DNA of 21,514 nucleotides from a virus, in IMG/VR virus record IMGVR_UViG_3300027736_000282, positions 1 to 21,514 of that record; one strand, written 5' to 3'. A model generated the notes under the pieces. It had not been told where the DNA came from, made no database searches, and worked only from the letters and a program-made list of their open reading frames with translations. The first letter of the stretch is position 1; each line of letters starts with the position of its first letter. A program made the translations under genes and the position numbers. Shown here piece after piece: positions 1 through 20,863 of this stretch.

Positions 1-326
1 CATTATCAGTTGGCGCAAACCTCACAGCAAACACGCTGACAACCCTTTACACAGTACCCAAGGGGTATTACGCAAGGGTAGTATTGCTACGGGCGGTCAA
101 TACAGGTTCGCAAAAACATATTTCTTTCAGTTGGACAGATACCTCTGCGTCTGTCACATATTCTCTTGTATTTGAAACCGCTTTAACTACTAAAACCACA
201 CAAGATTGGGGTGGTACATCATATTTTGTGATGGAAGAAGGTGACGTACTTAAAGCACAATCTGAGGCGGCATCTACCTTTTCGGTAGTAGTTACCATTG
301 AAGAAGAAGGGTTGACTAGAACATGA
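1..326 (+). CDS. small virion structural protein, 3' part (5' end outside window)
   Basis: The reading frame is open from base 3 and gives about 107 residues before the stop, so the gene starts before the window. An internal TTG at 84 is not needed as a start because the frame continues upstream with good coding character (LTANTLTTLYTVPKGYYARV). The pattern of a 'TLYTVP' opening, alternating beta-strand-like residues and a late 'EEGDVLKAQSEAA' stretch is typical of small beta-sandwich proteins encoded between capsid and connector genes in podovirus-like phages; this is remembered family style, not a search result. The stop overlaps the next start by 4 bp (ATGA), so it is translationally coupled to the adaptor-like gene. 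The exact role, whether head decoration or neck protein, cannot be told from sequence alone. Confidence 0.75.
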   Translation, partial: LSVGANLTANTLTTLYTVPKGYYARVVLLRAVNTGSQKHISFSWTDTSASVTYSLVFETALTTKTTQDWGGTSYFVMEEGDVLKAQSEAASTFSVVVTIEEEGLTRT

Positions 327-14923: not shown

Positions 14924-15012
14924 TTGTTTGAAACACGGCTAGATACGAAGTCATGAGCGTATTGAAAAGAGAACAGACCCCTCCTGCCGAGGTTTCTTTC
15001 AAGGGTCGAATC

Positions 15013-15765
15013 ATGGGTCTGAAAACAATGCACTACTACCAGTTCAATATTGGGGACTATGCTTCCCACACACGGCACTTAAATGTCATAGAAGATTGCG
15101 CCTATCGCAGGTTGCTGGACTTCTACTATCTCCACGAAAAGCCGATAAAGCACCAAGACATTGCTCGGCAGATCAACATGAGAGAGTATGAACAAGAGGT
15201 CTTATCTGTCCTAAATGAGTTCTTTTTGTCATCAGAGGATGGCTTTGTAAGTCCACGGGCTAACAAGGAAATTGAGCATTATCACTCGAAGATTGTCCAA
15301 GCATCAAAGGCTGGTAAAGCGTCTGCTGAACGGAGGTTCAACGGGCGTTCAACGGGCGTTCAACCAACCAATAACCATAAACCAATAACCATTAACCATA
15401 AACCAAAGGTAGAGAGCACAAGAGGCTCACGCCTCTCTCCTGATTTTTGCTTAACAGAAGATTGGAAAGACTTTTGCCAACAAGATAGACCTGACCTTAA
15501 CCCGTCTAAAGTGTTTGAGACATTCAAAGACTATTGGGTAGCCAAGGCAGGTCAACAAGGGGTAAAGTTGGATTGGTTTGCTACATGGCGTAATTGGGTT
15601 AGAAGTCAGAATCAAGCCCCTGTAAACAAAGCAGACCAAGTGTTTACGACTGTGCCAAGCCGATTCGAGCGTGATCCAGCCTTGATTGATGTGGAAAACA
15701 GGTTAAAACAAGGCGTTCCCATGCCACCTGAGATTAAGTTGGCCTTAGAAAGGTTACGCAAATGA
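15013..15765 (+). CDS. DUF1376-type replication initiation protein
   Basis: About 250 aa. Start ATG 15013 is preferred for AAGGG 7 bases upstream; ATG 14953 (270 aa) and 15028 are alternatives, and the domain itself begins at 'MHYYQFNIGDY' (15028). 'YYQFNIGDYASHTRHLNVIEDCAYRRLLDFYYLHEKPI' is the DUF1376 signature, a winged-helix-like domain found at the start of phage replication proteins. A linker with an 11-bp tandem DNA repeat and the 'NNHKPITINHKP' region (about codons 118-131) follows, then a C-terminal helical domain ('EDWKDFCQQDRPDLNPSKVFETFKDYWVAKAG...WFATWRNWVR') resembling primosomal or lambda-O-like DNA-binding proteins. It probably recruits a helicase at the phage origin. Confidence 0.83.
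   Translation: MGLKTMHYYQFNIGDYASHTRHLNVIEDCAYRRLLDFYYLHEKPIKHQDIARQINMREYEQEVLSVLNEFFLSSEDGFVSPRANKEIEHYHSKIVQASKAGKASAERRFNGRSTGVQPTNNHKPITINHKPKVESTRGSRLSPDFCLTEDWKDFCQQDRPDLNPSKVFETFKDYWVAKAGQQGVKLDWFATWRNWVRSQNQAPVNKADQVFTTVPSRFERDPALIDVENRLKQGVPMPPEIKLALERLRK
15336..15406 (+). repeat. iteron-like tract inside the initiator gene
   Basis: Two tandem perfect copies of GTTCAACGGGC (15336-15346, 15347-15357) and a partial third at 15358-15364, followed by AT-rich direct repeats TAACCATAAACCAA at 15372-15385 and 15393-15406 (21 bp apart). The 11-bp unit is not a multiple of three, so the repeats act at DNA level. Lambda-type origins lie inside the initiator gene and use such iterons; origin function is inferred. 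Confidence 0.55.
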
Positions 15766-18759: not shown

Positions 18760-19031
18760 AATATGCCCCTAAATTGCTCTAATGTGAGATAACGGGCAAA
18801 ATATTCATCTCCCAATTTTCTAAAGCAAGCATAAAGAGGGTAGCCCTCTGCATTGTCGCTATGTGCTTCACCTACTAAAAAAGCCCGTCTAATCATTGCC
18901 CTTGGCGGCACACATTCGAGCATCTCCCAGTACATTTTTTCGGTTGTATCTATCCATTCATTCGGCTTTGCTTCCATAGCATCCCAAAGGGGTTGCCACT
19001 CTAATAGGCTGTTTTCTTGGGTTGTATTCAT
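18756..19031 (-). CDS. conserved small phage protein (FLVGEA motif)
   Basis: 91 aa. 'WEMLECVPPRAMIRRAFLVGEAHSDNAEGYPLYACF...YFARYLTLEQFRGIF' matches a recurring phage/plasmid type of small protein: 'xxPPxxmxxxaFLVGEp...YxxF...Y....LTxxQF'. It is probably a soluble alpha/beta domain. The molecular function is not known to me. ATGA overlap with the upstream gene; TTGA overlap with the micro-ORF downstream. Confidence 0.72.
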   Translation of the reverse strand: MNTTQENSLLEWQPLWDAMEAKPNEWIDTTEKMYWEMLECVPPRAMIRRAFLVGEAHSDNAEGYPLYACFRKLGDEYFARYLTLEQFRGIF

Positions 19032-19321
19032 GCTGTAACTCCTTCAGTCAATTCGTTGATACGCTCGCACAAGTCCCGCAAGTTATAGCATTGGAAAACA
19101 ATACCGCCGCCATATTGTTTATTGTGGAACTTACGCCCGCCCAACTGTTTAGCCCTTGTGAGTGCCTGAGCGTATTTATCATTTATCAATCGGCCTTGTG
19201 CATCCCATCCCATAGTGATGGCGGCCTCTTCGTCTGTGTTTAGGTTTAAGTAGTGGCATACATAACGGGGATTTCCGTTAACGTCATTTTTTACCCGTGT
19301 GAAGTTATTTTCTTTAATCAT
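19028..19321 (-). CDS. small protein of second early operon, unknown
   Basis: 97 aa, ATG 19321 with the operon motif TTTTTTAAAATAGGTGTAAATATG-type leader (AGGTG about 6 bases before the start). Sequence 'NNFTRVKNDVNGNPRYVCHYLNLN' starts beta-like and is followed by helix 'KYAQALTRAKQLGGRKFHNKQYGGGIVFQCYNL', a mix typical for small alpha/beta phage proteins. No family recognised. It follows the attenuator/terminator-like element at 19337-19360. Confidence 0.7.
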   Translation of the reverse strand: MIKENNFTRVKNDVNGNPRYVCHYLNLNTDEEAAITMGWDAQGRLINDKYAQALTRAKQLGGRKFHNKQYGGGIVFQCYNLRDLCERINELTEGVTA

Positions 19322-19336
19322 ATTTACACCTATTTT

Positions 19337-19360
19337 AAAAAACCCTAGTCAATCACTAGG
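19337..19360 (-). terminator. terminator/attenuator after the clamp-like gene
   Basis: On the minus strand CCTAGT / ACTAGG form a 6-bp stem with a 5-base loop, followed by GTTTTTT. It overlaps the left end of the repeat at 19350-19393. In the other copy of the repeat the same arm pairs differently and no T-run follows, so only this copy looks able to terminate. Some read-through is expected because genes continue downstream without an evident new promoter. Confidence 0.65.
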
Positions 19361-19393
19361 CCATAAACCCCTATTTCTAAGGGTTTACAGTCT
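19350..19393 (-). repeat. 44-bp hairpin repeat, copy 1
   Basis: Nearly identical to 20083-20126, with differences limited to four consecutive bases in the hairpin loop. The stem is at 19364-19387: on the minus strand TAAACCCTTA, loop GAAA, TAGGGGTTTA, i.e. ten pairs including one G-U that can form only in minus-strand RNA. The loop here is of GNRA type. Confidence 0.85.
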
Positions 19394-19399
19394 CAGGGA

Positions 19400-20029
19400 T
19401 TAAGCCGTTGCCTTCTCAGTTTCTACGGCCTTTGGAACATAGCACCATTGTGGAATTGTTGCACCAGTTCCGTCACGCATTGGCATGATTACCCCTATAA
19501 AATTACTCACGCCGATATTGACTAAGGCACTTTGGTTGCCCCGTTGCAAAATGGATACAGTAGGGATCGCGCCTTTTTTGCTCTCTTTTATATCTTGCGC
19601 CGCTTGGTGAAATGCTAAAACGTATTCAGGGTTATAGCAAGCGGGCGCAATATCATCATCTTTTAAGACTAATGGCAATACCCTATCACAATCGGGAAAT
19701 GTCCCGTCAATGGCTTGGAATGTATGCTCGCCGTCTGGTGTGATTACATGGATTTTGAAACCGTCAACTGTAAAGTGTAGGATTTCATTGGCATTTTTAA
19801 CAGTCCCGATTAGAGACTTTATTGCATCATTGCCAATGGTAACGGCGTTTTGTGGCTTAGTTTCGTCATCTATCAACAATCTGCCCATGATGTGCCCATT
19901 TGTTGATTCTAGATAAGTGCCCCGATTATTTTGCACTACATGGATACCTTGCAAGTAATAACGTATGTCTTTAATTGCACTAAAACGAGACAATGCTTTT
20001 AATTGTTTGCGGAGAATTGTAAATTTCAT
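19400..20029 (-). CDS. short DNA polymerase sliding-clamp-like protein
   Basis: 209 aa from ATG 20029 (AGGTG, 6 bases upstream). 'KFTILRKQLKALSRFSAIKDIRYYLQGIHV' and 'YLESTNGHIMGRLLID' resemble the beta-clamp domain signature (xxxDIRYYLxGxx..xxATDGHRL) found in phage DnaN-like proteins; 'GTFPDCDRVLP' matches the clamp segment '..FPDxxxxxP'. At 209 residues it is clearly shorter than bacterial DnaN (about 366 residues), so it probably has two clamp folds and would need trimerization or another oligomer to encircle DNA, or it is a decoy of the host clamp. The gene is flanked by the 44-bp hairpin repeats. Confidence 0.7.
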   Translation of the reverse strand: MKFTILRKQLKALSRFSAIKDIRYYLQGIHVVQNNRGTYLESTNGHIMGRLLIDDETKPQNAVTIGNDAIKSLIGTVKNANEILHFTVDGFKIHVITPDGEHTFQAIDGTFPDCDRVLPLVLKDDDIAPACYNPEYVLAFHQAAQDIKESKKGAIPTVSILQRGNQSALVNIGVSNFIGVIMPMRDGTGATIPQWCYVPKAVETEKATA

Positions 20030-20082
20030 AATTGACACCTATTAAAGAAAATTAAGCATAGGCAAACCCATGCCCCTAATGA

Positions 20083-20126
20083 CAATCACTAGGCCATAAA
20101 CCCCTAAAATTAAGGGTTTACAGTCT
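20083..20126 (-). repeat. 44-bp hairpin repeat, copy 2
   Basis: Same element as 19350-19393 upstream of the clamp-like gene. The stem at 20097-20120 has loop ATTT on the minus strand instead of GAAA. A second stem follows (20075-20093): CCTAGTGA, loop TTG, TCATTAGG, eight pairs with one G-U. No T-run follows, so it would not terminate. Confidence 0.85.
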
Positions 20127-20131
20127 TATGA

Positions 20132-20329
20132 CTAATTATTGTTTGAAGTGATTTTGCAATATTCAACCCATTCATCATGTGTCATTTCCTTATGTGCTTC
20201 AAAGGTAACACCATTTATAGTTACTTTTTGCAAGATAAATGCATCAGTTGCCCCATTGGGCACGCCATTGGACAAATAGGGTTTATGGGAGACAATGCGA
20301 CCAGTTGATAAAAGAATATCGGTTTTCAT
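20132..20329 (-). CDS. small protein of second early operon, unknown
   Basis: 65 aa from ATG 20329 (motif TTTTTAAAAGGTGTTAATTATG-like, AGGTG). Sequence 'KTDILLSTGRIVSHKPYLSNGVPNGATDAFILQKVTINGVTFEAHKEMTHDEWVEY' starts with beta strands and ends in a helix. I do not recognise it. The stop is directly before copy 2 of the hairpin repeat. Confidence 0.65.
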   Translation of the reverse strand: MKTDILLSTGRIVSHKPYLSNGVPNGATDAFILQKVTINGVTFEAHKEMTHDEWVEYCKITSNNN

Positions 20330-20356
20330 AATTAACACCTTTTAAAAAGTTAAAGA

Positions 20357-20551
20357 TTATTCTATTGTGGCAGTAGTTACCCATTCAGCCCTGTCACCAT
20401 TCCAGGTTACATCTGGCAATGTAATTTTGTAGTGCTTAACTACTTGCATAACGTCATCATAGTTTTTTTTGTAATCGCACAATGGTGAACCTTGGTGCAT
20501 TAGTATCCATTTCCTATCATTTGAGTAAGATAAATGAGTTTTATAGTCCAT
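20357..20551 (-). CDS. small protein of second early operon, unknown
   Basis: 64 aa from ATG 20551, chosen for the operon leader TTTTTAATAGGTGTTACAAATG (AGGTG). Sequence 'DYKTHLSYSNDRKWILMHQGSPLCDYKKNYDDVMQVVKHYKITLPDVTWNGDRAEWV', a small alpha/beta protein with several aromatic residues. No family recognised. Confidence 0.65.
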   Translation of the reverse strand: MDYKTHLSYSNDRKWILMHQGSPLCDYKKNYDDVMQVVKHYKITLPDVTWNGDRAEWVTTATIE

Positions 20552-20563
20552 TTGTAACACCTA

Positions 20564-20659
20564 TTAAAAAGTTAAACAATCAAAGTATGCAAGCAGTAGG
20601 CAAACCCATGCTATACAAAAAACAAGGCCACCAAGGGTATCAAATAAAAATTGTCGCAT
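20564..20659 (-). CDS. 31-aa membrane micro-protein
   Basis: ATG 20659 preceded by the operon motif TTATTAATAGGTGTTAACTATG-like leader (AGGTG), direct evidence of a start signal shared with six larger genes. The product has one transmembrane helix ('LGGLVFCIAWVCLLLAYF') with three Cys, and the stop runs into the leader of the next gene. A 15-bp identical stretch (GCATGGGTTTGCCTA, coding A-W-V-C-L) recurs at about 20059-20073 just upstream of the clamp-like gene. Confidence 0.6.
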   Translation of the reverse strand: MRQFLFDTLGGLVFCIAWVCLLLAYFDCLTF

Positions 20660-20671
20660 AGTTAACACCTA

Positions 20672-20863
20672 TTAATAATTATTGTTTACAAAGTCTGATA
20701 AATCACCAATTATCATATCTAAGGTAGAACCCTTGGAGATATGCAACTTTAAGAGTTTGACAAAATCAGAGTTTTCTAGCAATAGGTAAGGGCTTACAGT
20801 TGTAACGTCTGCTATTTGTCCAAGGACAAAAGACATATCGAAGTCAGTAGTTTGATTTTGCAT
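20672..20863 (-). CDS. first gene of second left-going operon, unknown
   Basis: 63 aa from ATG 20863, with the leader TTTTTAATGGGTGTGAATATG (GGGTG). An upstream ATG or TTG would add a hydrophobic stub with no ribosome site. 'DMSFVLGQIADVTTVSPYLLLENSDFVKLLKLHISKGSTLDMIIGDLSDF' is an acidic helical sequence. First genes of such operons are often regulators or host-takeover proteins, but nothing shows it here. Confidence 0.65.
   Translation of the reverse strand: MQNQTTDFDMSFVLGQIADVTTVSPYLLLENSDFVKLLKLHISKGSTLDMIIGDLSDFVNNNY

Follow-up and report, generated by a model that had tools for sequence, protein, structure and literature searches.

What do two nearly identical RNA hairpins do on either side of a sliding-clamp gene in a phage operon? 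The question is raised by a tailed-phage fragment, a virus record of 21,514 bases (this whole stretch is called the window here), in which small early-type genes stand in a row on the minus strand near the right end. The reading we favour, to which we assign a probability of about one half, is that the hairpins could represent an RNA switch inside phage operons, an attenuator present here in two copies, and that this element probably controls whether the following gene is turned on.

Two copies of a hairpin element around the clamp gene

An earlier note on this DNA had described 44-bp repeats flanking the gene. These are found at 19350-19393 and 20083-20126; they are identical at 40 of 44 positions, the only difference being four adjacent loop bases, and a self-search of the record recovers copy 2 at E = 1.9e-13. 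Both copies fold on the minus strand, as had been described, into a stem of 10 bp that closes a 4-nt loop and contains a single U·G pair (stem 1), and no shuffled sequence was as stable as the strand around either copy (z-scores in Table 1). The hairpins that follow stem 1 also agree with that description, with 6 bp and a T-run in copy 1 and 8 bp and no T-run in copy 2. In copy 1 this hairpin 2 reads CCUAGU-GAUUG-ACUAGG, followed by GUUUUUU. Copy 2 has an extra third hairpin, GCAUGGG-UUUG-CCUAUGC followed by UUAAUUUUCUUU, which a simple terminator scan recognises as terminator-like (20075-20054), as it does hairpin 2 with the U-tract of copy 1; in L062 the stem of this third hairpin stays paired despite a change from CCUAUGC to CCCAUGC. 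The real unit exceeds 44 bp and spans about 19337-19399 in copy 1 and 20054-20131 in copy 2, where the CM match covers 20069-20126 (58.5 bits, E 5.4e-10).

Table 1. Features of the two element copies and their neighbouring genes, in window coordinates.
Feature	Position	Strand	Basis
Beta-sliding-clamp-like protein, commonest neighbour of the element	19400..20029	-	PHROG 947 processivity factor, 7.8e-11
TreK-like small protein (Phage_TreK, PF24229), gene after copy 1	19028..19321	-	Pfam E 8.9e-22
Small early gene, family F18, before copy 2	20132..20329	-	Element neighbour comparison
Element copy 1 (class A core), between clamp and TreK-like gene	19338..19393	-	CM 72.5 bits, E 4.6e-13; fold z -3.1
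Copy 1 strand a (6 nt past the clamp stop codon plus AGACUG)	19388..19399	-	a:b covariation across the family
Copy 1 stem 1 (10 bp, 4-nt loop)	19364..19387	-	U19380·G19371 wobble, pair 8
Copy 1 hairpin 2 (6 bp; 5' arm = strand b, 3' arm = strand c)	19344..19360	-	Fold, terminator scan, pair covariation
Copy 1 U-tract (6 U), directly past hairpin 2	19337..19342	-	Sequence; terminator-like scan match
Element copy 2, between gene 20132-20329 and clamp	20054..20126	-	Fold z -4.0
Copy 2 stem 1 (10 bp)	20097..20120	-	U20113·G20104 wobble
Copy 2 hairpin 2 (8 bp, without U-tract)	20075..20093	-	Fold
Copy 2 third hairpin and U-rich tail (terminator-like)	20054..20075	-	Terminator scan, fold

By its predicted fold the gene bracketed by the repeats is a sliding clamp: in the PDB, the predicted structure (pLDDT 81) is matched best by beta subunits of bacterial DNA polymerase III (E 2e-11). 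Translation likely starts with the ATG at 20029, since the GTG in frame at 20038 falls within the Shine-Dalgarno region. The ORF also matches PHROG 3007 (RusA-like Holliday junction resolvase) over positions 19400-20038 (E 1.4e-27); set beside the predicted fold, the RusA-like name of this PHROG, which has been copied into many phage records, looks wrong for the clamp protein.

A near-identical start region (AATAGGTGTnAAnATG) is common to genes of the operon (20327-20348, 20549-20570, 20657-20678 and 20027-20048) and is present even at genes without the hairpin element. The minus strand at about 20564-20659 encodes a hydrophobic peptide of 31 amino acids (MRQFLFDTLGGLVFCIAWVCLLLAYFDCLTF), which appears conserved in L001 and L002, where it is located just ahead of the clamp region; the third hairpin of copy 2 repeats part of the DNA that encodes this peptide (GCATGGGTTTGCC). 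Elsewhere in the window lie a PAPS-reductase-like phage gene (15762-16613; PHROG 424, E 3.1e-46) and a DUF1376 gene (14953-15765). The window capsid matches that of cyanophage A-4L at about 32% across 76% of its length and the terminase those of Rhizobium phages at no more than about 34%; these two comparisons yielded no host assignment.

A recurrent RNA with a covarying stem

The repeats are not a private duplication around the clamp gene, as they could seem from the window. At least 119 viral DNA stretches contain the element, beside many different neighbours, as found in IMG/VR with the pattern AGACTG-NN-AACCC-(5..16)-GGGTT-NN-TGGCC, which does not demand the U·G wobble. It is present in 15 of 16 long contigs tested, with one to four or five class A copies each, nearly all of them within one region; 13 of these 15 contigs have at least 10 gene families in common with the window and form one broad group, and the remaining two belong to a more distant one. 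Among loci fetched for the TreK-like protein without selection for the element, the CM scored above 50 bits in only seven besides the window, and the element therefore marks a phage group, not a gene family. Clamp loci fetched by the protein alone had, where sequence was available, a class A or class B element or a related hairpin pair beside the clamp.

A known Rfam RNA was considered and rejected: the 4227 models of Rfam 15 gave no match in the window at the gathering cut-off, the best sub-threshold match being mir-879 with 22.3 bits against a cut-off of 90. Searches of phage isolates returned only short partial matches to the element (E 0.1-5), megablast with 11.5 kb of the window returned none, and literature queries, some of them possibly too strict, retrieved no earlier description. 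In 84,980 bacterial species genomes there were two matches, in a Bradyrhizobium MAG and in Microbacteriaceae, which is about the number we estimate to arise by chance for 21 fixed bases; the one that was inspected lacks the usual hairpin 2. Judged from these sequence searches, the element is an uncatalogued structured RNA that recurs in a large group of uncultured freshwater phages.

When the fetched DNA was scanned with AGACTG and TGGC fixed and the stem left free, 213 stems of at least 8 bp were obtained and hardly any of 4-7 bp, compared with no stem of 6 bp or more in the same scan of shuffled DNA. Unrelated stem sequences were included, for example AAGGGCA/UGCCCUU and UAGUCCA/UGGACUA. The bimodal outcome and the unrelated stems together indicate that AGACUG and UGGCCU flank a stem of free sequence. 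In 39 diverse sequences (a MAFFT alignment of members picked for perfect stems) a 15-pair model has 92.9% of cells paired against 78.3% after shuffling, with changes on both sides in 12 of the 15 pairs. The covariation score of this set is 0.446 against 0.180 for shuffled alignments and was reached in 0 of 500 shuffles, a significance that is overstated because the element copies are related by descent. Controls with a slid structure brought pairing down to 23-64%. The covariation result was repeated on 101 distinct CM matches, the alignment of which is fitted to the model.

Pair 8 of stem 1 is a U·G in 27 of 29 distinct stem sequences (compared over the first eight pairs), whereas pairs 1-7 are wobbles in only 0-14% of them. 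Since the retained U·G pairs on the minus-strand RNA only, this strand is the one under selection, in line with what the earlier note had proposed; uncompensated stem mutations, which it had named as contrary evidence, were not seen in relatives. That the wobble is kept while the other pairs vary is good evidence for selection on the RNA and for readout of something beyond stability. An N4-type DNA-hairpin promoter or another DNA-binding site is disfavoured, because the wobble exists only in the minus-strand RNA and the stem sequence is free.

Two pairings that compete for one strand

A long outer helix had been missed in the window; it and the terminator-like hairpin compete. Three strands are involved: strand a, a few nucleotides past the upstream stop codon plus AGACUG; strand b, (U)GGCCU and the next 4 nt, immediately 3' of stem 1; and strand c, the 3' arm of hairpin 2. 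Pairing of a with b gives one long hairpin that encloses stem 1, and pairing of b with c gives a short G+C-rich hairpin followed by the U-tract. The two are mutually exclusive because the bases of strand b are the 5' arm of hairpin 2.

Natural variants of AGACUG:UGGCCU replace A3·C by G-C (AGGCU..GCCU), A-U (AGACUG..UGGUCU) or U-A (AUUCUG..UGGACU), and the position-4 C-G by A-U (AGAAUG..UGUCCU). Position -1/+6 of the outer helix (before AGACUG and after UGGCCU) is U-A in 120, C-G in 27 and A-U in 2 of 174; copy 1 of the window has a G before AGACUG and hence a G-A mismatch there. Further out, -3/+8 is paired in 131 against 100 expected and -4/+9 in 106 against 72, with no pairing excess at -2/+7 (109 against 112 expected). 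In a reduced set of 63, pairing across the five flank pairs amounts to 76%, against 59% when shuffled (0/500). One base of strand b is complementary to both a and c in 156 of 173 cases at position 6 and in 121 of 154 at position 8. The a-b-c bases change together as U-A-U, C-G-C and A-U-A; in this count only a:b is a free test, because b:c pairing was demanded by detection, and the other b:c pair counts rest on the CM-fitted alignment or on the MAFFT alignment of perfect-stem sequences.

Folding of transcripts cut before strand c gave the outer helix in 134 of 147 copies, while full-length folds of the 147 were divided into 50 with the outer helix and 97 with hairpin 2. Strand a of window copy 1 pairs with strand b in the nascent-length fold, as an antiterminator-like helix, and at full-length equilibrium this copy is almost entirely in hairpin 2 (P outer 0.02). 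Covariation for both a:b and b:c argues for an antiterminator/terminator-like switch, and the view that the element can adopt two mutually exclusive pairings sharing one strand is well supported by the comparison.

Class B, collected with a separate pattern from 25 stretches, consists of CUAGGGU, an 11-bp stem, CACCUAGG, a loop and CCUAGG, directly past TAA. In all 16 distinct copies the stem is 11 bp long and three strands are again complementary to one another; nearly all have a similar U·G close to the apex, and class B precedes the same gene families as class A (clamp, ArdC-like and others). Ahead of the clamp at L001:4930-5003, a hairpin pair of unrelated sequence has three UGCA strands that could compete, although this is a single example. 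We argue from the same competing design in unrelated sequences that the competition matters. Variant elements with AGCCTG (a C·C mismatch) and a longer hairpin 2, in L040, L094 and L240, suggest further subclasses.

A candidate attenuator at early-gene junctions

An upstream reading frame ends within 60 nt of the element in 153 of 168 distinct copies, with TAA as the stop codon in 140 of the 153, and AGACUG starts 2-7 nt past this codon in 146 of them. In 164 of the 168 copies a gene on the same strand comes next, and its start lies 75 nt (median) past AGACUG. This places the element within operons and not at their ends. With the next start codon this close there is no room for a promoter past the hairpins, and a promoter scan gave chance-level results (12 found, 11.2 expected). 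After hairpin 2 the frequency of T is 0.84, 0.92, 0.90 and 0.58 at positions 2-5 (background 0.285), with a mean of 4.0 T in six positions. T is also frequent (0.77) upstream of the Shine-Dalgarno site, and T-richness is thus not exclusive to termination. An AGGTG-type Shine-Dalgarno and a U-rich stretch directly past the element are common to the copies.

A member of the clamp family is the flanking gene in 82 cases (45 upstream, 37 downstream); other flanking families are ArdC-N-like, GP88-like, TreK-like, DUF7222, DUF7249 and unnamed ones. For a common upstream gene followed by different next genes, both phages have the element in 69 cases and only one has it in 59; for a common downstream gene preceded by different upstream genes, the corresponding counts are 46 and 14. 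The lower retention when the next gene differs hints that the element belongs to the downstream gene, as a leader would.

Taken together, we propose that the long a:b hairpin would form first in the nascent RNA and let RNA polymerase pass. If a ribosome that terminates at the stop codon, 2-7 nt upstream, were to cover strand a, or if a putative factor did not hold the long hairpin, b would pair with c and part of the transcripts would end ahead of the next gene's ribosome-binding site. From ribosome footprints, a ribosome terminating at the upstream stop is expected to cover most of strand a. Some factor may read the long hairpin, to judge from the fixed wobble and from the A·C and U·G/G·U pairs conserved in the outer helix, and the benefit of such a switch would be the dosing of early genes such as the clamp. 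Counting against an attenuator are the many copies with only 3-4 U after hairpin 2, the dependence of copy 2 on its third hairpin, the almost complete preference of copy 1 for hairpin 2 at full length, its G-A mismatch, and the missing pairing excess at -2/+7. In a narrower version, which we regard as tentative and rather unlikely, a trp-attenuator-like logic would act on full-length genes, so that a ribosome finishing an early gene covers strand a and forces the terminator hairpin.

The weak U-tracts and the conserved non-canonical pairs would also be accommodated if the long hairpin were a binding or cleavage site, at which a phage RNA-binding protein, an RNase III-like enzyme or another nuclease cuts the polycistronic early mRNA between genes. 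New ends would then be protected, and hairpin 2, its terminator look being incidental, would mainly cap the 5' end of the next message. Consistent with this are the near-invariant U·G in otherwise differing stems and the location of the element exactly between a stop codon and the next ribosome-binding site. However, the complementarity of strand b to both a and c and the T-peak directly past hairpin 2 are left unexplained, and the long helix, at about 16-20 bp, is near or under the usual length of an RNase III site. We consider cleavage or binding possible but doubtful.

The spacing of 2-7 nt from the stop codon and the shared Shine-Dalgarno and U-rich stretch would equally suit a translational insulator, in which the hairpins block just-terminated ribosomes from sliding to the next start and keep the next Shine-Dalgarno unpaired. 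Any stable hairpin would do for this, and neither the wobble, nor AGACUG/UGGCCU, nor two competing pairings would be needed, which makes an insulator unlikely.

Exchange of early genes offers a further explanation, in which the element would be a recombination linker, a short common sequence like the promoter-stem-loop cassettes of T4-type phages. The clamp is joined via the element to at least 10 different next-gene families and at least 9 preceding ones. Clampless relatives with one element exist, as the earlier note had anticipated (the element joins F10 to F15, F20 to F8, and F9 to F4, F8, F12 or F3), and in phages with only one neighbour in common homology stops at the element. However, partner switching at element junctions (0.50 and 0.40) compares with 0.46 and 0.69 at nearby element-free junctions and 0.42 and 0.41 at far junctions of the same phages, all from crude gene calls. 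A recombination hotspot is not supported, as control junctions switch as often or more, and the suggestion that the direct repeats specially drive gain or loss of the gene did not hold up. Mosaicism is general in these phages, and the element does not stand out as its cause. A DNA linker would moreover not explain the stem covariation and the U·G wobble, and we judge it very improbable. Equally improbable is a plain intrinsic terminator whose upstream hairpin would be mere decoration, which would account for hairpin 2 with its U-tract and for the scan match of copy 1 but not for the same-strand gene that nearly always follows without promoter room after the U-tract, nor for the complementarity of strand a and the wobble.

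In trp-type attenuators the terminator arm has a competitor in a strand near a stop codon, and a ribosome positioned at that stop would tip the balance towards the terminator. The element likewise has a strand near the stop codon that competes with a terminator-like arm; unlike trp-type leaders, it has no leader peptide or regulatory codons, and the upstream frame is a full gene, of many different kinds. In BglG/SacY/LicT systems the RAT, an imperfect antiterminator hairpin with unusual pairs, shares bases with the 5' foot of an intrinsic terminator, and only one of the two can form at a time (PMC3369936, PMC9981650); ribosome-governed antiterminators are also mentioned (PMC3369936). In the element, too, an imperfect antiterminator-like hairpin overlaps the 5' foot of a terminator-like hairpin. 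In contrast, the RAT belongs to a 5' leader, and the protein that reads it is known and under sugar control, whereas the element follows a stop codon inside operons and its stem sequence is free save for one wobble.

The ESAS of cluster K mycobacteriophages are conserved 17-bp inverted repeats just upstream of the SAS of several small genes (PMC3203893). They resemble the element as repeated inverted repeats ahead of small phage genes, but they keep their sequence, whereas the element has 29 distinct, compensated stems and a terminator-like hairpin in addition. Two adjacent phage hairpins also recall HK022 put RNA, which influences termination; the put sites are few in number, exert their effect on polymerase at distant terminators and are not known to have an overlapping terminator, whereas the element has an overlapping terminator-like hairpin. 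PeSL cassettes of T4-type phages are reportedly repeated stem-loops between interchangeable early genes, as the element is, and are said to include a promoter; in the element the next start is too close for a promoter, and partner switching is not in excess. The PeSL papers of Arbiol et al. 2010 and Comeau et al. 2014 are cited within PMC4177764 and PMC5931544. By the sequence or promoter that defines ESAS and PeSL, the element is neither; it would work like an antiterminator/terminator attenuator with a putative terminator.

The element is a strongly covarying RNA with a testable two-state design at early-gene junctions, that of the replication clamp included. If the attenuator proposal is true, it would be a portable regulatory joint that moves with interchangeable genes, and it would point to a factor (ribosome position, or a protein of phage or host) able to recognise the wobble at its set height in a helix of free sequence. 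If the trp-like logic also applied, transcription of the next gene would depend on how heavily the previous gene is translated, a self-adjusting dose chain through interchangeable early genes. The attenuator, if it works as proposed, would also represent a compact modular part for setting the ratio of adjacent operon genes.
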